Shown here one piece after another: positions 5,458-56,084 of a stretch of 64,000 nt of DNA. The stretch is from an uncultured Candidatus Cenarchaeum sp. (GTDB taxonomy: Archaea; Thermoproteota; Nitrososphaeria; Nitrososphaerales; Nitrosopumilaceae). The notes below the pieces were generated by a model. It had not been told where the DNA came from. It saw only the letters and a program-made list of their open reading frames with translations, and ran no database searches. Made by a program: the position numbers and the translations under genes. The stretch is taken from the NCBI GenBank assembly GCA_958295735.1, contig OY282369.1:248001-312000 (forward strand), read 5' to 3'. The number at the start of each line of letters is the position of its first letter. Position 1 is the stretch's first letter.

Positions 5458-8362
5458 ACCGTCCACCCGGAGCGGGTTTGGAGCATCGCTGATAGACATC
5501 ATGAGCGCCGCGGAAACCGATCGCGGCTCGCTCGAGTCGGCCGCAAGGGCGCTGGACGACCTGATAGAGTCCAACAACATACCCAGAAGTTACGAGTTCT
5601 TCGGCACTCTCTGCGCGGCGCTGGCGTACGACATAGCGAACGAGCCTTACGACGCCCGGAGGATGTACCAGCGGCTGGACAAATCAGATCATCCGAACCT
5701 CGAACACTTGGTGCTCTCAAAGTCAAACTCAAGATCCCTGACGGAGGCTTTCGGCCACATCGGCCTCCGGGAGCACGGACCACTTGCCGCCGGCCTGTCC
5801 AAAGTGCTGTCAAACCTGCGCGAACAGGAAGAACACCTCAAGAAGGCGCTGGATGGGGGTTTCCGGGACGACTACATGGTGCTGCTCGCCACGGTAGCCC
5901 TGTTCAACGACCTGCTGGGCGCCCTCGAAAATATGGACAGGGGCAGGATATCGGACATAAACGCGACCGCGAGCAAGATTAGCGAGGACCTCAAGTTGTT
6001 CTCGCCGGATCCCTGGATCGAGCTTACGGCCGTGCTCTGCCTGCAGCTGATCCGCAGGATCACCGAGCGATCCATACTGAATCTGGACATACCGGAGGAG
6101 ACGAAAAAGGCGCTGCAGCGCATCAAGTTCACGGAGCTCTGGACCCCGCAAAAGGATGCCGTGGACGGCGGGCTCCTGCGGGGGCGGAGCGTGGTGTACT
6201 CGTCGCCCCACGGCACGGGCAAGTCGTTATTGGCGTACCTTGCGGCGGGGAGCCTCAAGGCCGGCACGCAAATGGCGTACCTAGTTCCCACGCGCTCCCT
6301 CTCCGAGCAGGTATGCGCCGACCTGCGCAACGTGCTGGGCCCCACGCGCGAGATAGCCGTGTCAAGCAAGGACAGGACAGACCAAGACGATCGCGTATCC
6401 GAATGCGACGTGGTGGTGGCCACGTACGAAAAGATGGGCGCGCTCATCGGGAGAAGAAAAATAGATCCGTCGCGCATCCGCAACGTCATAGCCGACGAGA
6501 TCGACGTCCTCGGGGATCGGTCGCGCGGACTGAGGGCCGAGATGATGCTGACCAGGTTCCTGCGGGAGCCCCGCACGACGCAGTTGATCGGCATATCCGG
6601 TATGCTCAGGAAGGCCGATCTGGACAGGCTGTGCGCTTGGATGGGCGCGGTAGGAGTGTCAAGCTCGTGGAAGGGCACGAGGGTCAGGGAGGGAATCCTC
6701 CTCGACGGGACGCTGCACTGCATAGAAGGAGACGCGGAAGACATCCCGATGCCCGTCAAAGACGGCGCAACCGGACGCGAGAAAAAGACAGCAGCCGCGA
6801 TGCACTTTGCCGCGCGCGCCATCGCAGGCAGCGAGGCGGTCCTGATCTCGGTGACGGGGCGCGGGGAGGCATCAAGGCTGGCTCGGGACATCGCGCAGCA
6901 CGTCCGCAAGCCCCTCCTGCACAACTTGGACGTCGCGGACGCGCTGTCGGCAAAGAAGCGGATTCACGAGGCGGCGGCCGATCGGATAATGGAGATCGAG
7001 CCCATGACCCCGAGGTTCGGGCTGGATCTCGCGTCCATGCTAGAATGCGGCATCGCGTACCACCACGCCGGCCTGCCGAGCCGCTACAGGGAGATAGTGG
7101 AGGATGCCGTGCGGGACGGGGCGGCAGACGTGGTGGTAGCCACGCCGACGCTGGCTGCCGGAATGAACTTTCCGATAAAGACTGTCCTCTTTTTTGACGC
7201 AAAATACCGCGACGGCCGCGCGTGGAAGACCATAGAAAACAGGCAGTACCGGAACATCGCCGGCAGGGCCGGGAGGACGGGGCACCACAGGACGGCGGAG
7301 GCGATCGTCATAGCCTCCACGGGGGAGGAGTTCGACGAATACCGGAAGGCGTTCTGGCGGGAGCCGGATCCCCTGAGGTCGCCCCTCCGCAACGTGAGCG
7401 ATTCTGGGCCGGCCGCTGCCGCGTTGCGCTCGCAACTGCTGGGTTACGTCGCAGAACATCCCGGAACCGACGTGCGGGACATCCTGGAAAGCCTGCGCGG
7501 CACGTGGTTCTGGAGCCAGTCGCGCTCGGAAGCGGACAAGGCCGGCGTCGCCCGTTCGGTGGAATCGTCCCTGGACGCGCTCGCCGGCTACGGCCTGCTT
7601 TCGCGCGACGGCGGCCGCCTGCGGGCGACCGACGCTGGCCGGCTCGTCAGCGAGTCCATGCTGCCGCCGGACTCCGCTGGCAGCATCATCGCCGGCCTGA
7701 GGCGCGCGCTCGCGCGGGAACCGGGCGCGGGCGGGCGCACGGATGCGATCCTGGTCCTGGCCGGCCTGTCCGCGGATCTGTGGCCCTACGCCGGCAGGGC
7801 CAAGGGCATCAAGGTCCCCGACGGCGTGCAAAAGGCGGCGGACGATCTGTTCAGGGCTGACGGCATGCTGCTCAAGCCCCCCGAGCGCGAGCTCGCGGTG
7901 CGGGCGGCGAGCCTCCTGCACTACTGGATCAACTCGTCCACGGATTCCGAGATCCTGGCGGCCTGCGGGCACGATCGGCACTCGGTGCCGCCGGCGGGGG
8001 AAGAAATGGCGAGGGACGCGCACAGGACGCTGAAGCACGTCGCGTCCCTCGCCGCGCAGATCCGCGGCGCGGCCGCGGGCGCGGCGGCCGCGGGCGAGAT
8101 CCGCAGGGTGGCCGACTTTTGCAGGATCGGAAGCCGCGACGCGCTAGCCCGCGAGATCCTGGAGGCGGGGCTCGACCACGCGGGCCGGGACTCGGCGATC
8201 ATGATATCCAGGCGCGTCGGCCGGGGCAGGGACATGCGCTCCGTGTCGGAAGACGAGATCGTCTCCGCGTTTCCCGACAACCCGGATGCCGCCAGGCTGC
8301 TGTTCCGGGACATGCGCGGCGCGCGCGACGTCGCCCCGCCCGCCGGGACGAAGGCGGCCTGA
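5438..8362 (+). CDS. SF2 helicase of a Hachiman-like defence cassette (HamB/AbpB-like)
   Basis: A 974-residue (or 971 if the ATG at 5447 is used) superfamily 2 helicase. Motif I is SSPHGTGKS (Lys262), motif II ADEID (Asp353-Glu354), motif III GISGM, motif V VVATPTLAAGMNFP and motif VI QYRNIAGRAGRTG (from Gln603). This is the Ski2/Hel308-type core, preceded by about 240 residues of helical N-terminal domain and followed by about 330 residues of helical C-terminal domain. The overlap with the nuclease gene and the size fit HamB. Expected role: ATP-driven translocation on DNA that senses or unwinds phage DNA and licenses the nuclease. A chromosomal Hel308-type repair helicase is the alternative, but those are about 700 residues and not coupled to a nuclease. 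Confidence 0.75.
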   Translation: MQSMPREPSTRSGFGASLIDIMSAAETDRGSLESAARALDDLIESNNIPRSYEFFGTLCAALAYDIANEPYDARRMYQRLDKSDHPNLEHLVLSKSNSRSLTEAFGHIGLREHGPLAAGLSKVLSNLREQEEHLKKALDGGFRDDYMVLLATVALFNDLLGALENMDRGRISDINATASKISEDLKLFSPDPWIELTAVLCLQLIRRITERSILNLDIPEETKKALQRIKFTELWTPQKDAVDGGLLRGRSVVYSSPHGTGKSLLAYLAAGSLKAGTQMAYLVPTRSLSEQVCADLRNVLGPTREIAVSSKDRTDQDDRVSECDVVVATYEKMGALIGRRKIDPSRIRNVIADEIDVLGDRSRGLRAEMMLTRFLREPRTTQLIGISGMLRKADLDRLCAWMGAVGVSSSWKGTRVREGILLDGTLHCIEGDAEDIPMPVKDGATGREKKTAAAMHFAARAIAGSEAVLISVTGRGEASRLARDIAQHVRKPLLHNLDVADALSAKKRIHEAAADRIMEIEPMTPRFGLDLASMLECGIAYHHAGLPSRYREIVEDAVRDGAADVVVATPTLAAGMNFPIKTVLFFDAKYRDGRAWKTIENRQYRNIAGRAGRTGHHRTAEAIVIASTGEEFDEYRKAFWREPDPLRSPLRNVSDSGPAAAALRSQLLGYVAEHPGTDVRDILESLRGTWFWSQSRSEADKAGVARSVESSLDALAGYGLLSRDGGRLRATDAGRLVSESMLPPDSAGSIIAGLRRALAREPGAGGRTDAILVLAGLSADLWPYAGRAKGIKVPDGVQKAADDLFRADGMLLKPPERELAVRAASLLHYWINSSTDSEILAACGHDRHSVPPAGEEMARDAHRTLKHVASLAAQIRGAAAGAAAAGEIRRVADFCRIGSRDALAREILEAGLDHAGRDSAIMISRRVGRGRDMRSVSEDEIVSAFPDNPDAARLLFRDMRGARDVAPPAGTKAA

Positions 8363-8397
8363 TCCCGAATCCTCCGGGACGCGCCCCGCCCGCGCCC

Positions 8398-8778
8398 TCA
8401 AAAGCACCGCCGATCGATTATGGCGCCGAGGACGTCCTCGGTGGCGCGCCACGCGACGGCGCCGTCGCCCCCCCAGCACGTGAGGCGCAGCCCCGCCACC
8501 TCGAAGCTGTGGCGCCCGTGGATCACGGAGAGCTCGACGGCGGCGCCCCCGCCCCCGGCGGCGCCGTACGAGATGGCGCCGTCCGCGGCCAGGCCCGGCC
8601 GGACGCCCCCGTACGCGCCGTGCAGGGCTTCCACCTCCTCCAGCCCCATGAAGCGCTCCGCGTAGGCCCCCGGCCCCTCCGGAAAGTACGGGACGAGCGC
8701 GTACAGCGACAGCGCGGCGGCGAGGGTGGCCGCGGCGGCGGCCGTGGTCGACAGCACGAGCACCCCGAAGCGATCCAC
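8398..8778 (-). CDS. Small membrane-anchored protein, unknown function
   Basis: A 126-residue protein with one N-terminal hydrophobic segment (about residues 6-30, VLVLSTTAAAAATLAAAL) and a small soluble domain outside the membrane (including AVELSVIHGRHSF and GLRLTCWGG). No family is recognised. The GTG start at 8778 is supported by CTAATATG (8801-8808 on the other strand) 28 bp upstream. Convergent with the helicase gene. Confidence 0.6.
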   Translation of the reverse strand: MDRFGVLVLSTTAAAAATLAAALSLYALVPYFPEGPGAYAERFMGLEEVEALHGAYGGVRPGLAADGAISYGAAGGGGAAVELSVIHGRHSFEVAGLRLTCWGGDGAVAWRATEDVLGAIIDRRCF

Positions 8779-8888
8779 CGCGGGCCGGCGGGCCGCGGCG
8801 GCATATTAGGCATCGCCCGCCGCCGCCCCGCGGGCGGGAGGGTTTTTGTAGATCCGCCCCGCCCCGCCGGCATGGCCCGGGGCGCGCG

Positions 8889-10379
8889 GTGGTGACCACC
8901 CTGACCTTCCACGGCGGGGTGGACGAGATAGGCGGGAACAAGATCCTGCTGGAGGACAGGGGCACCAGGGTCTTCATCGACTTCGGGATGCAGATGGGCA
9001 GGGCCAACCGGTACTTCGCGCCGTTCCTCCCGCCCAGGAGGCTCTCCGGCATGGGCGACCTGATGGAGTTCGGCCTCCTGCCGCGCATGAGGGGGATATA
9101 CAGGAGGGACTATTCCAGGCACTCCGGGTACGGCGACCACGCCGAGGACACGGCGGTGGACGGGGTCCTGCTCAGCCACGCGCACGCGGACCACTGCGCG
9201 TACCTGCACTACCTCCGGCACGACATACCGGTGTACTGCTCCGAGGCGAGCGCCGCCGTGATGCGGTGCCTCCAGGAGACCGGCGGCGGCGACGAGTACG
9301 TGACGTACAGGGAGAACTTCAAGACGTACGCGAAGAGGGGGGGCGGGAGGGCCAGGGCCAGGACGGCCAAGACGCGCGAGGAGGCCCCCCGCGACATCAG
9401 GACGGTGCGGCCCGGAAAGAAGTTCCGCATAGACTCCATAGAGGTGGAGGCGGCCCCGGTCGACCACTCCCTCCCCGGCACGTACGGGTTCATAATACAC
9501 GCCTCCGGCGGGTCCGTGGGGTACACGGCCGACCTGAGGTACCACGGCAGGCGCGGGGGGGACACGAGGGCGTTCGTGGAAAAGTGCGCGGGGTCGGATC
9601 TCGACGCGCTGCTGTGCGAGGGCACGAGGATCGATGCCAAGAGGACCCGCACGGAGCTCGACGTCGAGCGCAGGGTCGCCGAGCACGTCGGCAAGGCGGG
9701 GAGGAGGGGCGGCCTCGCCGTCTGCACCTACCCGGTCCGCGACCTGGACAGGTTCCTCTCGTTCTACAACGCGGCCAAAAAGTCGGGGCGCCGCATGGTG
9801 GTGGACACGAAGCAGGCCTACCTCCTGAAGATCTTCAGCGAGACGGAGGCCCTGAGGGGAGAGTACCCGCCCCCCGACGACGGGCACCTGGGGATATTCG
9901 TGTCGAGGAAGTCGTGGGGCCTCCTCGGGGCAGGCGGGGATCCCGCGGAGGGCGACTATCCCGCGTGGGAGAGGGGGTTCCTCGACCACCCCAACATGGT
10001 CGACGGCGCGTACGTGCGGGCCAACCAGGGCCGGTGCCTGTTCTACTGCTCGGACTACAGGCTGACCGACCTCATCGACGTGAGGCCGGCGCCGGGATCC
10101 GCGTACGTGCGCTCGTCGACCGAGCCGTTCGACGAGGAGATGGCGCTCGACGAGGAGCGCGTCGGGAGGTGGCTGCGCCACTTCGGCCTGATGAGGAGCG
10201 GCTGCATGCTAGAGCGCGTCCACGTCTCGGGCCACGGGTCGGGCGAGCAGATACGGAGGGTCGTCTGCGGCGCGGGCGCGGGGTACGTCGTGCCGATCCA
10301 CACGGAGAAGCCCGGCGCGTTCAGCGGCCTGCACGGCAGCGTCAGGAGGGCCAAGCCCGGAAGCATCATGAAGATCTGA
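8889..10379 (+). CDS. Metallo-beta-lactamase/beta-CASP ribonuclease, RNase J-like
   Basis: A 496-residue enzyme with the zinc motif HAHADH (His97, His99, Asp101, His102), later DHSLPGTYGF and GYTADLRYHG, and the closing beta-CASP signature HVSGHGSGEQI...YVVPIHTEKPGAF. RNase J/CPSF-type proteins degrade or process RNA with this di-zinc site. An insertion of about 60 residues with a basic stretch (RARARTAKTREE) separates the early motifs. The GTG start at 8889 gives MVTTLTFHGGVDEIGGN, the expected first strand; an ATG at 8874 is out of frame. GTTTTTG at 8843-8849 may be the promoter, which would give a short leader. Confidence 0.8.
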   Translation: MVTTLTFHGGVDEIGGNKILLEDRGTRVFIDFGMQMGRANRYFAPFLPPRRLSGMGDLMEFGLLPRMRGIYRRDYSRHSGYGDHAEDTAVDGVLLSHAHADHCAYLHYLRHDIPVYCSEASAAVMRCLQETGGGDEYVTYRENFKTYAKRGGGRARARTAKTREEAPRDIRTVRPGKKFRIDSIEVEAAPVDHSLPGTYGFIIHASGGSVGYTADLRYHGRRGGDTRAFVEKCAGSDLDALLCEGTRIDAKRTRTELDVERRVAEHVGKAGRRGGLAVCTYPVRDLDRFLSFYNAAKKSGRRMVVDTKQAYLLKIFSETEALRGEYPPPDDGHLGIFVSRKSWGLLGAGGDPAEGDYPAWERGFLDHPNMVDGAYVRANQGRCLFYCSDYRLTDLIDVRPAPGSAYVRSSTEPFDEEMALDEERVGRWLRHFGLMRSGCMLERVHVSGHGSGEQIRRVVCGAGAGYVVPIHTEKPGAFSGLHGSVRRAKPGSIMKI

Positions 10380-48572: not shown

Positions 48573-50807
48573 CTACGACATGTCCACTATGACGGCCGCC
48601 CTGCCGGGGGCGGCGGCCCCCGCCCCGGGGGCGGCGCCCGTCCCGACCTCGGCCATCACGGCCTCCAGCATGTGGGCCGGCGAGGTGAGCCCCGAAAAGT
48701 CCATCATCTGCATCTCGTTGACGAGGCAGACCTGGGGGGCGATCCCCGAGCCGCGCGACTCCAGGTAGTCGTCCAGATCCTCCACCAGCGATATGGCCCC
48801 CCCCTGCATCACGCGGCCGTTGCGGTACGAGAGCTTCTGCCTGCCGTGCCGGTCCAGCACCACCACGTGGTGCCTGTTCCTCCTGCTGAACAGCCGCTTT
48901 TCCGTGGCGTGGCCGACGAAGACCATGTGGTGGCCAGACTCGAACGGCATGTCCACCTGGTCCGGATCCATCCCCATAATCTCGGCGGCCCGCAGCCGCG
49001 CCTCCTCCGCGCCGAACCTGCCGCGGCCGGCCGCCCACGGGGCCGCCGCCCCGTCCATCCCCACGCTGCCCACGGCCGCCACGCGCAGCACCGACTTTTC
49101 CGGGAAGAACTCGCTGTCGACCACCACCGACTCCGGGACGGCGCCCTTGGCCACGATGGCCTCGTGTACCTTCCTGTGCGCCCCGGACACGAGGCCCGGC
49201 GACGGCTCGGACATGGCGACCTCGGCCTCCTCCCGCATCATCGACGAGGCCACCCCTATGGAGGAGATCACCTCGGCGTGCGCCGCCTTTTCGTACGGGA
49301 TCCCGAGCCGCTTGGCGACGAACGGGACCAGGACGGACGCCCCGCCCCCGCCCCCTATTATCCGGGCGGCGGAGCGCTTCATGCGGAACTCCTTGAGCGC
49401 CTTGGACACGGCGGCCGTCACCTCGAAGGCCGAGATCTGCATCACGGAGAACGCCGCCTCCGAGTACGAGACGCCGACGGCATCCCCGAGCTTGGCGAGG
49501 GCCGCCCTGGCCGCATCCCCCCCCGCGTGCGCGTAGTCGCCCTCCTCCACCAGCCCGAGCGCGTTGGCCGCGCAGGTGTTCGTTATCGCGTACGTCCGCC
49601 CGCCGGCGCACTCGATCGCCGCGTACTCCTCCTCGTCCCCCTCGCGCGGGGCCACCTTCACCACCCTGCCGCCGCGCAGCTCGCCGGGGTCGGCGTAGCA
49701 CGAGTACCGCATGCCGGCCACGTGCGCGCTGCGGGGGCCCACCCGGTCCACCCTGCCCCCGCGCAGCGCCACCATGCTCCCGCCCGCCACGCCCAGCACC
49801 CGGACGTCCAGCGAGCGCACGCACGTGGGGTGGTCCTTTATGGTGACGTAGCGCATCTCCGGCCTGCCGTTGCGTATGACGCACACGTTCGTGCTGGTCC
49901 CCCCGACCTCCACGAACACGGCGTTGCTGGCCCGCAGGTACAGCAGCGCGCCGGCCACGCTGGCCGCCGGGCCGGACAGCACCGTGAGTATGGGGGTGGT
50001 CCTGAAGGTCTCCATGCTGGTCACGCCGCCGTCGCCCTTCATCACCATCAGGGGCGCCCGCGCGCCGGCGTCCCGCACGGCGCCCTCCACGTACCGGGCG
50101 ACCCTGAGCGTCTTGGGCAGCACGCTGGCGTTGACGGCCGCCGTCAGCGTCCTGATCTCCAGCCCGTACGCGCCGGATACCTCGTGGGAGCACGTCGCCG
50201 GGAGGCCCATCTCGGCGGCCCGCTCCGCCACGAAGTCCTCGTTGGACGGATCGTCCACCCCGAACGCCTCGGCGGCCACCACCACCTCGGCCCCCTCGCC
50301 GCGCAGCCCGTCCACCGCCGCCCGCACGTCCTCGCCGGTTATGAGGCGGGAGGTGTCCAGGAACCGGTGGGCCGAGCGCAGGCCGCGGCGCCCCGCCCCC
50401 GTCCCGCCGCCGCCCAGCCTGGTCCTCTTCACAACGTCCCTCTTTTCCGGCCCCACGCCCATCGCGACTATGCCCACCTTGTGCGTGTCGGACTCCAGCA
50501 GGGCGTTTATGGCCTGCGTGGTGCTGTGCGAGATGAGCTCGATCTCGTCCAGCCGGATCCCCGAGCCGGCCACCAGGCGCCCCAGTGCGTCGACTATCCC
50601 CTCCGAGACGCCCCGCTCCGCCGAGTGGGTGGTGGGAACCGTGGAGCTGGCCAGGATCTCCCCCGTCGCGGCGTCCAGGGCGACCCCCTTGGTGAACGTG
50701 CCGCCCACGTCCATGCCGACCCGGATCCGCCTCCGGCCGCCGCCATCCGCGGGGCCGCCATCCGCGGGGCCGCCATCCGCGGGGCCGCCATCCCGCCCGC
50801 TAGGCAC
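48573..50807 (-). CDS. Hydantoinase/oxoprolinase (HyuA-like) family protein
   Basis: A 744-residue ASKHA-fold protein: IRVGMDVGGTFTKGVALD is the phosphate-1 loop, SHSTTQAINALLE follows, MVMKGDGGVTS and FVEVGGTSTNVCVI are the HyuA core, and IIGGGGGASVLVPFVAKRLG is the adenosine region. Family members use ATP to open 5-oxoproline or hydantoin rings or to carboxylate acetone-like ketones; the HyuB partner is not seen. The N-terminus has a repeated GGPAD (three 15-bp repeats, 50744-50795) before the domain, so translation may truly start later. The GTG at 50807 overlaps the FTR1 stop by 8 nt, implying a shared operon. Confidence 0.82.
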   Translation of the reverse strand: MPSGRDGGPADGGPADGGPADGGGRRRIRVGMDVGGTFTKGVALDAATGEILASSTVPTTHSAERGVSEGIVDALGRLVAGSGIRLDEIELISHSTTQAINALLESDTHKVGIVAMGVGPEKRDVVKRTRLGGGGTGAGRRGLRSAHRFLDTSRLITGEDVRAAVDGLRGEGAEVVVAAEAFGVDDPSNEDFVAERAAEMGLPATCSHEVSGAYGLEIRTLTAAVNASVLPKTLRVARYVEGAVRDAGARAPLMVMKGDGGVTSMETFRTTPILTVLSGPAASVAGALLYLRASNAVFVEVGGTSTNVCVIRNGRPEMRYVTIKDHPTCVRSLDVRVLGVAGGSMVALRGGRVDRVGPRSAHVAGMRYSCYADPGELRGGRVVKVAPREGDEEEYAAIECAGGRTYAITNTCAANALGLVEEGDYAHAGGDAARAALAKLGDAVGVSYSEAAFSVMQISAFEVTAAVSKALKEFRMKRSAARIIGGGGGASVLVPFVAKRLGIPYEKAAHAEVISSIGVASSMMREEAEVAMSEPSPGLVSGAHRKVHEAIVAKGAVPESVVVDSEFFPEKSVLRVAAVGSVGMDGAAAPWAAGRGRFGAEEARLRAAEIMGMDPDQVDMPFESGHHMVFVGHATEKRLFSRRNRHHVVVLDRHGRQKLSYRNGRVMQGGAISLVEDLDDYLESRGSGIAPQVCLVNEMQMMDFSGLTSPAHMLEAVMAEVGTGAAPGAGAAAPGRAAVIVDMS

Positions 50808-53034
50808 CGCCGGCGCCGCCCCTGGACTTGCGCATGCCCGCCACCATCCTCTCCTTCCGCGGGCGGAGCACCAGCACGTACGTGGATGCGGCCACGTACA
50901 CGCCGCACAGGACCGCCTGCGCCACCACCGTCTCCAGCGTGGGGTATATGCCGGTCATCGTGGCCATGTTTATGTCCAGCCTCGGCACCGTGCCGATCAT
51001 GCTGGTGTACGGCACGATGTCGAGCACCTGCAGCTCCCGCACGGCGTTGCCCAGGAACGCTATGGACAGGTAGGCCCCTATGCCCATCGTGAGGCCGAAC
51101 AGGACGCGCAGCGGGAGGCGCCGGCCCAGCCTGCGCATCACGTAGTACAGGAGCAGCAGCGAGGCCATGCCGGCCACGAAGCCCAGCCCGACGTACGCCT
51201 CCATGTACTTTGCGAACCCGAGCATGGCCTGGTAGAACAGGACCGTCTCGAAGCCCTCCCTGTACACGGTGAAGAAGGCGAGCATGACGAAGACCATGAC
51301 GCTGCCCGTGGTGGTGGCCTGCCAGACCTTGGCCTTGACGAACTCCATCCACTTTTTGTGCTCGATCTTGTTCAGTATCCAGAAGCTCACGTAGAACAGG
51401 ACCGCCGTGGCGGAGAGCGCCGCCACCGCCTCGATGAGCTCGCGGCTCGCGCCGGATATCTCCACCACGTACGAGGCCGCGAACCAGGTGGCCGCGGTCG
51501 CCCCCACGGCCGCGAGCACCCCGTAGTACACGTACGGCTTGAAGCGGGAGTTCCTCGAGGCCTCGAGGTACGTCAGTATGGCGCCCAGTATCAGGACCGA
51601 CTCGAGGCCCTCCCGGAATATTATGGCGAAGGACGCGGAGAACGCTATGGCGGGGGCCAGCTGGCCCGTCCCGGTGACCAGCCTCTCGGACTCGTCGAGG
51701 TTCCGCTCTATCCTCGTGGCCGCCTCCCGGACCTCCCCGTACGGGGCCTCCCGCTTTATGAGGTTGCGCAGGTCGGCGAACAGGTACTCCACCTCCAGCG
51801 TGAAGTCCGGGTCTATGGGCCGCAGCGGGATCTCCACGTACTCGTAGCTGTCCAGGTACGCGGTGCGGGCCGTGGCGTACGCCGACTGGACGTCCCCGGC
51901 CTCGTAGTGCGCGAGCATCTCCCCCAGGCTGGCCCGGATGGAGTCGATCTCGCCGCGCACCCCCGACCGCTCGTCCTCCGTGGTCTCGCCCGCCCCCTTC
52001 CTCACCCCGCCGAACGAGGGGGAGGCCAGGGCCTCTGGGTACGCGGACGCGAGCGCCGCGACCTTGGCCTCGCCCTCGTCGAGCGAGGGGAGTATCGTGC
52101 CCTCGAGGAACGCGCGGATCTCGGCGGGGTCCCCCCCCTCCCGCACCATGGAGCGGAGGTCCTCCCTCATCTGCACCTCCAGCCGGTGCATGTGCTCGGC
52201 GTCGGCCGCCTCGAGCTCCGGCTCCAGGTACTCGAAGTTCTCGAGGTACGCCTCTATGGCCAGGTCCTCGGCCTCGGCGTAGTCCCCCGCGTCCACGGCC
52301 ACCAGGAGGCGGCCGTACAGGGCGCGTATGTTCTCGTACAGGCCGGCCGAGTCGTGCAGCAGCGTCTCGGTGCCCAGCAGGTCCCTCTGCACGGCGCTGA
52401 CCAGCGATCCCACCCTGGAAAAGTCGCCCCTGGCGGCCGCCGTCGACTCGATGGAGTCGAGGAACGAGATCTGCTCGACGTCCAGCATCGACCCGGGATC
52501 GGCGTCGGCCTCGAACACCGCCTTGGATCTGGAGAACAGGGCGGCGGCTATGCGGTGCGCCGCCTCCGACTCCCCGCCGCCCTCCGATGCCAGGGCGTAC
52601 TGCTCGTCGGCCGCGTTGAGCATCATCACCACCGCCTGGCGCGGGCCGCCTGCCGGCGCGGCGCCGTACCCGCCCACCATGGACGCGGCGGCCGCGATCC
52701 GGGCGGCGGCATCGGTCCCCGGGATGGACGGCGGGACATCCAGCAGCGCGACGTGGATCTCGGCGGCCGGCGCGCCCCCCTGCCCGGGCGGCGGCAGCCC
52801 GGACATCCCGGCGATGAACTGCCGCGAGGCGAACTCGGCCGCGTGCGCCGCCCCCGCCTCGTCGCCCTCCCCCAGGAGGGCCGCGGCCACGCTCAGCCCT
52901 ATCCCGGCCTCCTCCAGCGCGGCCGGCGCCGCCGGGGGCTCCTGGGACGAGGCGGCGGGGAGCGAGGCCAGGGCCGCCGCCGCGAGGGCCGCCGCCGCGA
53001 GGAGCGGCATCGCGGGCGGACGTTGGGGCTTCAC
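50800..53034 (-). CDS. FTR1/EfeU-type iron permease with large extracellular domain
   Basis: A 744-residue protein. After a signal peptide come about 430 residues outside the membrane, with two repeats of a helical module (AYLENFEYLEPELEAADAEH; AYLDSYEYVEIPLRPIDPDF). Seven transmembrane segments follow, with the iron-transport motifs IIFREGLESVLIL (about residue 475) and VYREGFETVLFYQ (about 592). FTR1 proteins move oxidised iron across the membrane. The same extracellular module occurs once in the PEFG-CTERM protein next door. The GTG at 53034 is about 26 bp from GATTAATATT (53056-53065, other strand). HyuA follows in the operon. Confidence 0.88.
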   Translation of the reverse strand: MKPQRPPAMPLLAAAALAAAALASLPAASSQEPPAAPAALEEAGIGLSVAAALLGEGDEAGAAHAAEFASRQFIAGMSGLPPPGQGGAPAAEIHVALLDVPPSIPGTDAAARIAAAASMVGGYGAAPAGGPRQAVVMMLNAADEQYALASEGGGESEAAHRIAAALFSRSKAVFEADADPGSMLDVEQISFLDSIESTAAARGDFSRVGSLVSAVQRDLLGTETLLHDSAGLYENIRALYGRLLVAVDAGDYAEAEDLAIEAYLENFEYLEPELEAADAEHMHRLEVQMREDLRSMVREGGDPAEIRAFLEGTILPSLDEGEAKVAALASAYPEALASPSFGGVRKGAGETTEDERSGVRGEIDSIRASLGEMLAHYEAGDVQSAYATARTAYLDSYEYVEIPLRPIDPDFTLEVEYLFADLRNLIKREAPYGEVREAATRIERNLDESERLVTGTGQLAPAIAFSASFAIIFREGLESVLILGAILTYLEASRNSRFKPYVYYGVLAAVGATAATWFAASYVVEISGASRELIEAVAALSATAVLFYVSFWILNKIEHKKWMEFVKAKVWQATTTGSVMVFVMLAFFTVYREGFETVLFYQAMLGFAKYMEAYVGLGFVAGMASLLLLYYVMRRLGRRLPLRVLFGLTMGIGAYLSIAFLGNAVRELQVLDIVPYTSMIGTVPRLDINMATMTGIYPTLETVVAQAVLCGVYVAASTYVLVLRPRKERMVAGMRKSRGGAGGA

Positions 53035-53090
53035 GCGGTCGCCCGCAGCGGGCGGAATATTAATCAGTTTTCGGATCAAGTTGCACCGGG

Positions 53091-54857
53091 TCAGGGCGGG
53101 GCCGAGAGCCGGAGGCCCGGGCGGGCGGAGGCGGCGGCTACCGCCGCGACGGCGGCCGCGGCCAGGACGATCACCGCCACCGTCCCGAACTCTGGGACTA
53201 CCGCGGCCACCGCGTTCATCTTGTCCAGCACGGCGTCGATCTGCGCCTCCACCTCGGGCACCGGGGCGCCGTCCCGCATCATGCCGCGCAGCTCCTCGCG
53301 CATCATCACCTCCACCTCCTCCATGAGCTCCCGCTCGCCCGCCCGGACGAGCGGCGCCTCGAGGAACTCGTAGTTGTCCAGGTACGCCTTCGTGGCGTAG
53401 CTGAGCGCCAGGTCCTCGTTGCCGGCGCCGTACGCCGCCCTGGCGTCGGCCAGCAGCGCGTTGATGTTCTCGACGTATTCCAGCAGGCTGGCCTCCTCCG
53501 CGCGCATCCCGGCAGCCTCGTCGAGCTCGCGCATTATGGCGCTGGTGGCATCGTCCACCTCGCCGGGCGGGGCGCGGGCCGCGTACGCCGCGTCCACGCT
53601 GTCGAACAGGCCGTCTATATCGCCGGCTACCCCGGCGTCCACGTCGCCCCTCATGCCCTCGAATATCTCGCCGGCGCGCCACACGAACGCGGAGCCGTCC
53701 TGGAACTCGGCCATCTCCACAATGGCGCCGCCCTCCACGGCCTCGCCGTACTCGGCTATCGAGGTCTCGAGCAGCCCCTTCATGAGCATCATGCGGAACA
53801 CGGGATCGGAGCTGAGCGGCTCGCCGACCACCGCCCGCCTGGCCGCCTCCACCGCCTCCTTGGCCTCGTCGACCGCCGCCTGGGCCCGCGCCCGCGGCAC
53901 GTCGGTGCCGGCGCGGTCCTTCAGGCCCTCCAGGATCCCGGCCACGCGCCGGTCCAGCTCGGGATCCGCGGATGCCAGGGCGGGCTTCATGGCATCGTAC
54001 AGCTCGGCCACGGGGTGGGTGGCGTGGGCCGCGGCGAGCCCGGCGTTGCCCTCGTCGAGGTTGAGCTCGAGCGCCCGAAAGTGGCCGAGCATCTCCTCCA
54101 GGCCCGAGGCGAAGTCCAGGCGCTCGCCCGCGTAGGCGACCTCCCAGAGCTCGTGTATGATCCCGCCCGTTATCGCGGCCACCTCGCCGGGCGGGGCGCG
54201 GGCCGCGTACGCCGCGTCCAGGTCGGAGAACAGGCCGTCTATCTCGCCGGCCGCCCCGGCGTCCACGTCGCCCCTTATGCCCGCGAATATCTCGCCGGCG
54301 CGCCACACGAACGCGGAGCCGTCCTGGAACTCGGCCATCTCCACAATGGCGCCGCCCTCCACGGCCTCGCCGTACTCGGCTATCGAGGTCTCGAGCAGCC
54401 CCTTCATGAGCATCATGCGGAACACCGTGTCGGAGCTCAGCTCGTCGCCGACCACCGCCCGCCTGGCCGCCTCCACCGCCTCCTTGGCCTCGTCGACCGC
54501 CGCCTGGGCCCGCACCCGCGGCACGTCGGTGCTGGCGCGGTCCTTCAGGCCCCCCAGGATCCCGGCCACGCGCCGGTCCAGCTCGGGATCCGCGGAGGCC
54601 AGGGCGGGCTTCATGGCATCGTACAGCTCGGCCACGGGGTGGGTGGCGTGGGCCGCGGCGAGCCCGGCGTTGCCCTCGTCGAGGTTGAGCTCGAGCGCCC
54701 GAAAGTGGCCGAGCATCTCCTCCAGGCCCGAGGCGAAGTCCAGGCGCTCCGCCGTGCTCAGGCCGTCGGCCGCGGCGTGGGCCGGCTGCGGCATGGCGGC
54801 GAGCGCGAGCGACATGGCTGCGGCCACCGAAACCGCGCCGATCGCGTGCATGCTCAC
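53091..54857 (-). CDS. PEFG-CTERM surface protein with internal duplication and FTR1-like module
   Basis: A 588-residue secreted protein: signal peptide (VSVAAAMSLALAAMPQPAHA), two nearly identical 208-residue repeats (each starting ERLDFASGLEEMLGHFRALE and containing FRMMLMKGLLETSIAEYGEA), then one module (AYLDNYEFLEAPLVRAGERE) shared with the neighbouring FTR1 permease. It ends VPEFGTVAVIVLAA, a helix and an Arg, the thaumarchaeal PEFG-CTERM sorting signal processed by an archaeosortase. Likely a cell-surface iron-binding or scaffold partner of the permease (inference). The GTG at 54857, 26 bp from TTATAA (54881-54886), or the ATG at 54851 is the start. Confidence 0.85.
   Translation of the reverse strand: MSMHAIGAVSVAAAMSLALAAMPQPAHAAADGLSTAERLDFASGLEEMLGHFRALELNLDEGNAGLAAAHATHPVAELYDAMKPALASADPELDRRVAGILGGLKDRASTDVPRVRAQAAVDEAKEAVEAARRAVVGDELSSDTVFRMMLMKGLLETSIAEYGEAVEGGAIVEMAEFQDGSAFVWRAGEIFAGIRGDVDAGAAGEIDGLFSDLDAAYAARAPPGEVAAITGGIIHELWEVAYAGERLDFASGLEEMLGHFRALELNLDEGNAGLAAAHATHPVAELYDAMKPALASADPELDRRVAGILEGLKDRAGTDVPRARAQAAVDEAKEAVEAARRAVVGEPLSSDPVFRMMLMKGLLETSIAEYGEAVEGGAIVEMAEFQDGSAFVWRAGEIFEGMRGDVDAGVAGDIDGLFDSVDAAYAARAPPGEVDDATSAIMRELDEAAGMRAEEASLLEYVENINALLADARAAYGAGNEDLALSYATKAYLDNYEFLEAPLVRAGERELMEEVEVMMREELRGMMRDGAPVPEVEAQIDAVLDKMNAVAAVVPEFGTVAVIVLAAAAVAAVAAASARPGLRLSAPP
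53530..54749 (-). repeat. 624-bp direct duplication inside the PEFG-CTERM gene
   Basis: Copy 1 spans 54126-54749 and copy 2 runs from 54125 down to about 53530, with an exact 624-bp period (208 codons) and few differences. The low divergence means a recent duplication or gene conversion, and it preserves the frame. Confidence 0.9.
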
Positions 54858-55025
54858 GCCCGCCCGCGAAACTGGTAGCGTTATAAGTCGTCGCCGCCGC
54901 ACGTGCGGGTATTACACGTTCCTGTAACGACCCAGGTTGCGCCGGGGCGCATGCAGGAAGATGCGGCGGGCGGGGGGCGCCCCGGCCGCGCAGGCAGGAC
55001 CGCCGCCGCGCGGCCGCAGCGGCGC

Positions 55026-55170: not shown

Positions 55171-55583
55171 TAGTCTTCCCTGCCCCACAGGGGCGCGGGG
55201 AAACGCCGTGGGGGAGGGCGCCGCCCGCGTGCCGCGGGCGGTTCACGGCGCCGAACGGCGGGGGCGCCGCCCGCGTGCCGCGGCAACCGGGGCGCGGCGC
55301 CGGAAGCGCGGCGGGGTATCCGAGGCGGGCGGGGCCCGCCGCGGGAACGGCCGGGGCGGCAGCTGGGCGGCGCCCGCCGCCCGCACGCGGCGCGACAGAA
55401 TCCGCCCGCGGCGGCGCGCCCGCGCCAGCCGGGGCACCCCGCGGCCGCCGGGCGCCGGCGGGCGGGCGGGCGCGCCGGCGGACGGGGAACGGGGGCGCCC
55501 CTGCCGATCCGGATCCGCGGCGGGCGGGGCCCGCGGCGCGGCGGGCGGCGAATTTTTTTATTGCGGCGCGGGATGCGGCCCGC

Positions 55584-56084
55584 GTGGACGGCAGGGAGGC
55601 GGCAAAGGAGGCGGCGAGGATGCTGCTGGACGGCGCCACGCTGAAGAAAGAGCCGTGCCCGTACTGCGGGGGGGTCAGGGTGATGCGGGGCGGGCACGCC
55701 CTGTGCGTGGGATGCGGAAGGAAGCCGGAGGCCGGAAGGCAGCCGGGCGCGGCCGGGGCGGCGGAAGCGCGCAAGGGCGCGGCCGGGGCGGCGGAAGCGC
55801 GCAAGGGCGCGGCCGGGGCGGCGGAAGCGCGCAAGGGCGCGGCCGGGGCGGCGGAAGCGCGCAAGGGCGCGGCCGGGGCGGCGGAAGCGCGCAAGGGCGC
55901 GGCCGGGGCGGCGCTACAGGCAGGGCTCGCGGCCCTGGTCGACGAGCTCGGCCGCGAGGGCGATTCCGGGGCGCGGCGCGGGATCCTGAAGGCCATACGC
56001 TCGGCGGCGAGGGCCGCGGAGGCGCTGGAAGGGGCGGGCCGGGGCCGCGGGCCCCCGCGCGGCGCGGGGCCGCGGGCCCCCTAG
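55584..56084 (+). CDS. UPF0148 / autoantigen p27-like zinc protein with repeat insert
   Basis: A 166-residue protein. AARMLLDGATLKKEPCPYCG and CVGCG give the four-cysteine ribbon (Cys25, Cys28, Cys41, Cys44) typical of archaeal UPF0148 (Sjogren/scleroderma autoantigen 1-like) proteins. A low-complexity insert of five GAAGAAEARK decapeptides follows, then a helical C-terminus (LAALVDELGREGDSGARRGI). Function unknown, perhaps in RNA or ribosome-linked work. The GTG at 55584 is about 27 bp below TTTTTTTATT (55553-55562). The decapeptides come from a 30-bp tandem repeat, so length may vary between strains. Confidence 0.8.
   Translation: MDGREAAKEAARMLLDGATLKKEPCPYCGGVRVMRGGHALCVGCGRKPEAGRQPGAAGAAEARKGAAGAAEARKGAAGAAEARKGAAGAAEARKGAAGAAEARKGAAGAALQAGLAALVDELGREGDSGARRGILKAIRSAARAAEALEGAGRGRGPPRGAGPRAP
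55745..55915 (+). repeat. In-frame 30-bp tandem repeat, five full units plus partial
   Basis: GGCCGGGGCGGCGGAAGCGC followed by GCAAGGGCGC repeats at 55751, 55781, 55811, 55841 and 55871, then a partial at 55901. The units are identical, encode GAAGAAEARK, and keep the frame of the UPF0148 gene. Confidence 0.95.

Follow-up and report, generated by a model that had tools for sequence, protein, structure and literature searches.

FTR1-family permeases move ions rather than chelates, as far as is known, and to our knowledge they are regarded as oxidase-coupled and not as ATP-dependent. In the EfeUOB and EfeUOM systems, the permease is accompanied by an extracytoplasmic, all-helical partner; one such partner, EfeM, has been described as a pair of four-helix bundles bearing HxxE and acidic metal sites (PMC9174327). 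Characterised members of the family transport iron (PMC9174327, PMC10783030), and ammonia-oxidising archaea (AOA) carrying FTR1 have been counted as having Fe-specific uptake (PMC9723733). Passages on thaumarchaeal iron permeases in open-licence PMC papers mention ZIP-type or unspecified permeases. We analysed a 64,000-nucleotide (nt) stretch, hereafter the window, which spans positions 248001-312000 of a 3.17 Mb single-contig genome of an uncultured Candidatus Cenarchaeum sp. (G+C 65-76%). The window carries three minus-strand genes, encoding a surface protein with a PEFG-CTERM-like tail, an FTR1 permease with a long extracytoplasmic N-terminal region, and a HyuA-like protein of the hydantoinase/oxoprolinase A family. 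These three genes probably form one metal-uptake unit (a probability of about 70%), in which an FTR1-type permease, probably for iron, would work with a metal-binding surface partner and a cytoplasmic, nucleotide-dependent HyuA partner.

The surface protein gene (54857-53091) encodes 588 amino acids (aa), or 603 aa if translation starts at an alternative GTG at 54902, and lies 80 nt upstream of the FTR1 gene (53010-50800; 736 aa) on the same strand. AT-rich stretches, which may be promoters, precede both genes. The HyuA-like open reading frame (ORF; 50807-48573), read from its first start, overlaps the FTR1 stop by 8 nt, an arrangement that may couple their translation, and belongs to the same unit as FTR1. 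The permease matches PF03239 with 65.3 bits (cut-off 25.3), and its homologues are 47-65% identical. Two REGxE motifs, REGLE (residues 466-470; 51601-51615) and REGFE (residues 584-588; 51247-51261), are invariant in 16 aligned FTR1s and lie inside predicted, putatively transmembrane helices (451-484 and 571-599). The window FTR1 does not reach the equivalog thresholds of TIGR00145 (111.8 of 303.8 bits) or EfeU (72.1 of 255 bits), and a Pfam search found no cytochrome c domain in it. Iron is the likely substrate because of the membership in the FTR1 family.

The initial annotation had described a helical AYL module occurring twice in the FTR1 N-terminus and once ahead of the PEFG tail. All three copies were found (AYLENFEYLE at FTR1 residue 254, AYLDSYEYVE at FTR1 residue 384 and AYLDNYEFLE at residue 491 of the PEFG protein), but the proposed consensus, AYL(D/E)xxE(F/Y), must be corrected to AYL[DE]-x-[FY]-E-x-x-E. 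The shared part is also larger than had been claimed, as both proteins are built of four-helix bundles of about 95 residues. Smith-Waterman scores of the PEFG module against FTR1 modules 1 and 2 were 142 and 106, compared with shuffle means of 31.7 (standard deviation 5.8) and 28.5 (standard deviation 5.3), and these scores were reached in 0 of 1000 shuffles. When the suggested profile search was run with the first FTR1 module (M1), the window PEFG protein was recovered among 654 ORFs with an expect value (E) of 7e-14. Profile-profile comparisons by hhalign, based on a module-protein alignment without the window protein and an FTR1 alignment including the window FTR1, matched the PEFG module (M) to M1 at 99.8% (E 8e-29) and to the second FTR1 module, M2, at 99.4% (E 6e-21). 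The same comparisons matched module B of the family to FTR1 residues 125-218 (96%) and module A to module M (97%), while module A matched the front of FTR1 at 45% only; no reversed-profile comparison exceeded 20%. Even without its last module, the PEFG protein outscores 300 of 300 shuffles against the outer part of FTR1.

Based on these profile-profile comparisons, the layout is A-B-A-B-M for the PEFG protein and (A')-B'-M1-M2-membrane part for the AOA FTR1. In the PEFG protein, modules A and B occur as two tandem copies of a 624-nt, 208-aa unit (54126-54749 and 53502-54125), followed by module M (53232-53519). The two units share 183 of 208 residues and differ at 45 of 624 nt, and the longest identical run covers their first 152 nt. 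Similar A-B-A-B-M layouts occur at four other loci (L036, L041, L052 and L136). FTR1 comprises a tentative bundle A' with four predicted helices (residues 28-114; 52669-52929), B' (residues 122-212; 52375-52647), M1 (residues 219-318; 52057-52356) and M2 (residues 345-447; 51670-51978); the last adjoins the membrane part and is also found in bacterial FTR1s.

In agreement with this layout, an AlphaFold2 model of the C-terminal part (349 residues) of the PEFG protein, covering the second A-B copy and module M, shows three four-helix bundles and a C-terminal helix (predicted local distance difference test, pLDDT, 89.7; predicted template modelling score, pTM, 0.81). In the FTR1 model, long helices come after four bundles of this kind (pLDDT 84.1, pTM 0.53), and the placement of the bundles is unsure because of the low pTM. 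In these searches no Pfam family corresponds to the module: the PEFG protein has no Pfam match over cut-off, and a Deinococcus homologue has none up to E 0.01. Searches of PDB sequences turned up no convincing relative for FTR1 or for the module protein, a Foldseek search with the FTR1 model returned nothing usable, and VIA-align with the module model returned mostly generic four-helix bundles.

In the module protein, the polar residues conserved best are H, E, D, Y and R, as counted over 15-19 homologues with the window rows left out (model residue 1 corresponds to protein residue 240). They include H20, H39 and H42 (71% each) and E46 (94%) in bundle A; E130 (100%), Y131, E145 (94%) and D148 (D/E 94%) in bundle B; and Y253, E258, E261 and E277 (100%) in module M. 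This conservation points to ligand residues. In the model, bundle M carries E258 and E261 on its second helix and E277 on its third, at similar heights to either side of the turn at 267-269; these residues may constitute a metal site.

Like the PEFG-CTERM surface proteins of Thaumarchaeota, the window protein has a C-terminal VPEFG, a hydrophobic stretch and a basic end (residues 553-575; 53133-53201), which score 22.5 and 23.1 bits with TIGR04296, below the cut-off of 25. Of 21 homologues of the module protein, TIGR04296 matches 13 at E of 0.1 or lower, the best at 1.9e-12. In contrast to PEFG-CTERM proteins, the module-protein family uses several ends, the PEFG tail being one. Archaeal members end in PEFG-CTERM or CFI-box-CTERM, and two bacterial members (loci L206 and L215) have N-termini that resemble lipobox or lipoprotein signals. 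The anchor varies with lineage, and the bundle body stays. Passages on PEFG-CTERM in open-licence PMC papers revealed no link to FTR1.

In 39 of the 40 loci fetched, which represent eleven genera, HyuA is the gene immediately after FTR1; in the fortieth, the contig ends at this point. When ORFs are read from the first start, HyuA overlaps FTR1 in 38 of the 40 loci (by 4-62 nt), and in one it starts 7 nt past the last base of FTR1. In a set of 80 named loci, many from the same genomes as the 40 fetched ones, 35 have HyuA as the next gene downstream of FTR1, and a frame search adds two more (L219 and L221). A module ORF was identified around FTR1 (up to about 8 kb on each side) in 23 of 40 loci. 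In nine it immediately precedes FTR1 on the same strand, at a distance of 52-110 nt, in 12 it is directly downstream of HyuA, and in two it is nearby on the opposite strand. Locus L062 was dropped from this count, as its extra match is the front of its own broken FTR1. There (8007-10207, genome G092), FTR1 is split into ORFs of 241 and 469 aa with an intact HyuA behind; the genome is otherwise good.

FTR1 is present in 48 of the 151 genomes of the window family; the FTR1 profile matches 52, four of which hold the module only. A profile of the module alone matched the same 52 genomes at E up to 1e-4 and left the remaining 99 unmatched. As the module is part of FTR1, 48 of these 52 match by construction, the remainder being the four module-only genomes; the informative figures are hence the four matches among 103 genomes without FTR1 and the separate module proteins. 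Counting the strong matches by hand (E below 1e-20) gives a separate module protein for 46 of the 48 genomes with FTR1. The two others are G077, which holds a 157-aa piece of the cluster at a contig end, and G106, in which the contig ends inside HyuA. A profile of the complete module protein matched all 151 genomes; this tally is background because the profile includes the PEFG tail, and only matches below 1e-20 were used. The association of the module protein, A/B-only relatives included, with FTR1 (46/2 versus 12/91) has a Fisher p of 5e-25, uncorrected for relatedness. HyuA of the GGTFTK type was found in 46 of the 151 genomes, all FTR1-positive, and in none of the 103 lacking FTR1. The joint tally is thus 46 genomes with both, 103 with neither, two with FTR1 only (G120 and G130, where FTR1 lies at contig ends) and none with HyuA only. 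The surface-anchored FTR1 partner proposed in the initial annotation is supported by these counts, and the suggested linkage with HyuA proved stronger than claimed.

In a phylum-wide sample of 300 genomes, the FTR1 profile finds matches in 38. Module-bearing FTR1 occurs only in the window family and in the Nitrososphaeraceae-like family f3; of the other matching genomes, two of f2 have just a module protein, and most of the rest carry short FTR1s that match over the membrane part. Forty-three of 44 genomes picked for a HyuA match (41 of f3, plus G542, G414 and G460) also match the FTR1 profile, G519 and G531 by modules only.

The surface-anchored partner had been proposed as specific to Thaumarchaeota, which does not hold: bacterial FTR1s carry the module, and the cluster occurs in Deinococcota, Actinomycetota and Chloroflexota (Anaerolineae) records. 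In tblastn searches against plasmids, the FTR1 region with M2 was recovered in bacterial cytochrome c/FTR1 permeases. One match of the archaeal FTR1 spans two adjacent genes of Deinococcus taeanensis, annotated as 'hypothetical protein' and 'FTR1 family protein', and the next gene, an annotated hydantoinase/oxoprolinase, overlaps FTR1 by 4 nt. The 330-aa hypothetical protein, the module protein WP_225523685.1, aligns with positions 36-346 of the 379-position archaeal module-protein profile (E 1e-64), and the adjoining HyuA matches the archaeal HyuA profile with E 1e-167. The order module protein, FTR1, HyuA is also found in the thaumarchaeon UBA141 and in metagenome-assembled genomes (MAGs) of Actinomycetota (L206), Anaerolineae (L215) and Deinococci (L219); a Frankiales MAG (L221) carries FTR1 and HyuA, and no module ORF was found there. 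The bacterial cases are few and mostly MAGs, in which single contigs may be misbinned; the D. taeanensis record is a complete plasmid. With the Deinococcus module protein as a query, no second plasmid record was found.

FTR1 is short in D. taeanensis (399 aa) and UBA141 (409 aa), where it consists of M2 and the membrane part. Because a module protein (A-B-M) plus a short FTR1 equals the long AOA FTR1, and because the tblastn match spans both genes, the archaeal FTR1 looks like a fusion of the two with a free copy of the module protein retained. Such a fusion is a classic sign of physical partners.

The window HyuA matches PF01968 (170.3 bits, cut-off 22.9), PF05378 and the profiles of solved members, as do HyuA and the acetophenone and acetone carboxylase subunits. 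It differs from the HyuA enzymes in lacking HyuB and in its GGTFTK, GGTSxN and TCAAN motifs. GGTFTK is located at 50688-50705 and TCAAN at 49563-49577. The fetched loci hold 66 distinct HyuA ORFs, which lie beside FTR1 or, in Nitrososphaeraceae, elsewhere in an FTR1-bearing genome; the lysine of GGTFTK and the GGTSxN motif are present in all 66, and TCAAN in 65; the last is of the TDA type in 6yra and 5l9w. A HyuA-only search returned eight plasmid records with relatives at over 90% coverage and 34-40% identity, seven of which, including D. taeanensis, were looked at. HyuA is directly behind an annotated citrate transporter gene in three haloarchaea, an NhaC-type gene in one, and a gene annotated 'transporter' in Selenomonas; in an unannotated Streptomyces record, there is no FTR1 match within 12 kb. 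Five non-FTR1 relatives, when aligned, have GGTFTD and GGTS(T/S)D. Aspartate occupies both places also in 7hk5 and 6yra, and 5l9w_b has a lysine at the second. In these alignments, K/N accompanies FTR1 and D/D other neighbours. In a HyuA tree, the five non-FTR1 proteins are on one side with 100/100 support, and the bacterial FTR1-linked HyuAs on one side with weaker support (81/69); UBA141 forms a long branch. The tree, which samples 24 rows, shows no recent transfer and does not settle the origin of the branch. We infer that HyuA may be a nucleotide-binding protein whose chemistry has changed and which works for the permease. Searches of open-licence PMC papers yielded no relevant paper joining FTR1 with hydantoinase or oxoprolinase.

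The system resembles EfeUOB in pairing an FTR1-family permease with an extracytoplasmic helical partner but has three or more bundles of about 95 residues, and HyuA in place of EfeB. The EfeB-type DyP peroxidase (PF04261) was found in 0 of 20 FTR1 genomes (control search positive in 3 of 14). Permeases of FetMP, P19-cFtr1 and the cytochrome c/FTR1 type contain related N-terminal modules: three M-type stretches in Pasteurella, and one M-type and one B-type each in Cupriavidus and Xanthomonas. P19 (PF10634), the partner in FetMP and P19-cFtr1, was likewise found in 0 of 20 FTR1 genomes (control positive in 1 of 14). Foldseek with the module model placed EfeM (7q1g) and EfeO (7wgu), periplasmic partners of EfeU, at ranks 3 and 4, not significantly (E 0.2). 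M75 matched two of 18 module proteins (best E 3e-9) and not the window protein, was not among the families shown for a second set of 21, and exceeded the cut-off in one of 20 FTR1 genomes, inside the module gene. Because unrelated helical families such as DUF1771 reach 9e-10 in a similar scan, the M75/imelysin matches are only suggestive and the module protein is not filed under this family; one homologue gave a weak match to FEA1-related lipoproteins (E 0.026) among chance-level matches. As DyP peroxidase and P19 were not found, M75 was detected once inside a module protein and Foldseek ranked EfeM and EfeO as above, the module protein may, by analogy, be an EfeO-like partner in function.

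In the proposed uptake unit, the PEFG protein would act as a surface-tethered, permease-free relative of the FTR1 outer domain, whose conserved His/Glu/Tyr clusters would bind metal outside the membrane. It would then deliver the metal to its counterpart bundles in FTR1 (A'-B'-M1-M2), and these would pass it on to the REGLE/REGFE transmembrane path. On the cytoplasmic side, HyuA would be a nucleotide-dependent partner, possibly using ATP, that takes over, releases or drives the metal as it comes in. Several observations weigh against this proposal. No module ORF was found beside FTR1 in 17 of 40 loci, one of which has a piece at a contig end. In Nitrososphaeraceae, HyuA and FTR1 co-occur without being adjacent, and in some genomes they are 1.5-7 kb apart on the same strand. 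Module M is present in four genomes without FTR1 (G069, G076, G125 and G135, which are 98, 89, 70 and 61% complete), and eight more FTR1-lacking genomes hold A/B-only relatives with no FTR1 among the neighbours; parts of the module set thus also work without FTR1. None of the Foldseek matches has an E below 0.18, and the four-helix bundle is a common fold. In 22 of 40 loci, a CbtA-family gene (assigned by PF09490, E 4.6e-54, in a Pfam run on one member) is found near FTR1, in most cases on the upstream side; CbtA being a cobalt family, another metal may be involved.

This last observation, together with the TrmB/ArsR-like regulator genes near FTR1 in 24 of 40 loci, bears on a reading in which the same system handles another metal, such as cobalt, copper, manganese or lead, or exports it. 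One FTR1 relative, PbrT, takes up lead. Ammonia oxidisers depend heavily on copper (PMC7785015). We consider this reading rather unlikely, since the hallmark motifs of FTR1 are preserved, those members that have been characterised transport iron (PMC9174327, PMC10783030), AOA with FTR1 are counted as having Fe-specific uptake (PMC9723733), and no CbtA-cluster gene was seen beside FTR1 in the loci of five genera (g6, g10, g13, g15 and g19). It is improbable that the PEFG protein instead has a structural role, in the surface layer or in adhesion, and has a stable bundle in common with FTR1 for historical reasons only. Bundles of this kind are frequent (Foldseek also returned vinculin and catenin), the gene contains a tandem A-B duplication, and A/B-only relatives exist without FTR1; however, the conserved positions are of the ligand type, module M occurs in only four of 103 FTR1-lacking genomes, and the cluster persists across domains while anchors change. 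Given the same 4/103 count, a generic helical repeat, which would have undone the initial annotation, can be ruled out for the AYL module; it is not rejected for modules A and B, which are also present in proteins of genomes lacking FTR1.

HyuA could also be a metabolic enzyme that hydrolyses lactams or imides at the expense of ATP, acting on an organic ligand taken in with the metal and standing outside the permease machinery, as its solved relatives are N-methylhydantoinase, 5-oxoprolinase and acetophenone carboxylase. The nearest non-FTR1 HyuAs are directly behind transporter genes, so the pairing with transporters may be a habit of this HyuA branch. We regard an enzymatic role as unlikely, if worth keeping in view: HyuB (PF02538) was found in 0 of 20 FTR1 genomes tested (control search positive in 6 of 14), and K and N replace the aspartates of GGTxTD and GGTxxD in all 66 FTR1-system HyuAs. 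As far as is known, FTR1 also carries ions and not chelates. That the neighbourhood reflects chance, or inheritance without function, is scarcely tenable. Genomes of one family are not independent samples, but HyuA directly follows FTR1 in eleven genera, the presence of the two is patchy and joint, and the same cluster occurs in four bacterial records; their joint presence and absence largely refute this explanation.

We tentatively suggest, at somewhat less than even odds, that the three-gene uptake unit represents an unrecognised metal-uptake system of Archaea and Bacteria, composed of a free, surface-tethered outer-domain bundle protein, FTR1 and a HyuA-derived ATP-binding driver or gate (GGTFTK). 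The new parts are the HyuA link and the cross-domain cluster. If true, it would make this FTR1 branch the first to have a nucleotide-dependent partner of its own, and it would fill the place of the partner reported to be missing in AOA, the distribution of which is shaped by iron supply. The cluster suggests partners for a metal-uptake permease thought to have none, offering two concrete candidates for expression and assay, and a possible function for the HyuA branch without HyuB. The HyuA signature is a simple marker to find the system in any genome.

A few further features were noted. The A/B-only relatives, mostly from FTR1-lacking AOA, are secreted proteins of about 300 aa (one of 401 aa) that feature modules A and B, no M, and a conserved PACV/PACI...GW domain at the end (L107, 7088-9280; L108, 7401-8306; L228-L234). 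In L107, two copies precede an ABC permease gene; the few neighbourhoods looked at have no common metal theme. The TrmB/ArsR-like regulator genes are small and mostly upstream of FTR1; an example of the CbtA-family genes is found in L051 (5955-7445). At the haloarchaeal plasmid loci in which HyuA directly follows citrate or NhaC-type transporter genes (L224, 3572-7136; L225, 3678-7136; L226, 3555-7136; L227, 3678-7136), a small gene overlaps HyuA, and an FAD-dependent oxidoreductase is encoded nearby. In the window, the start region of HyuA (50700-50807, minus strand) contains three tandem copies of PADGG, not seen in 15 aligned relatives. An ORF on the plus strand (55275-56084) encodes a CxxC zinc-ribbon-like stretch followed by five AAGAAEARKG-like repeat copies.

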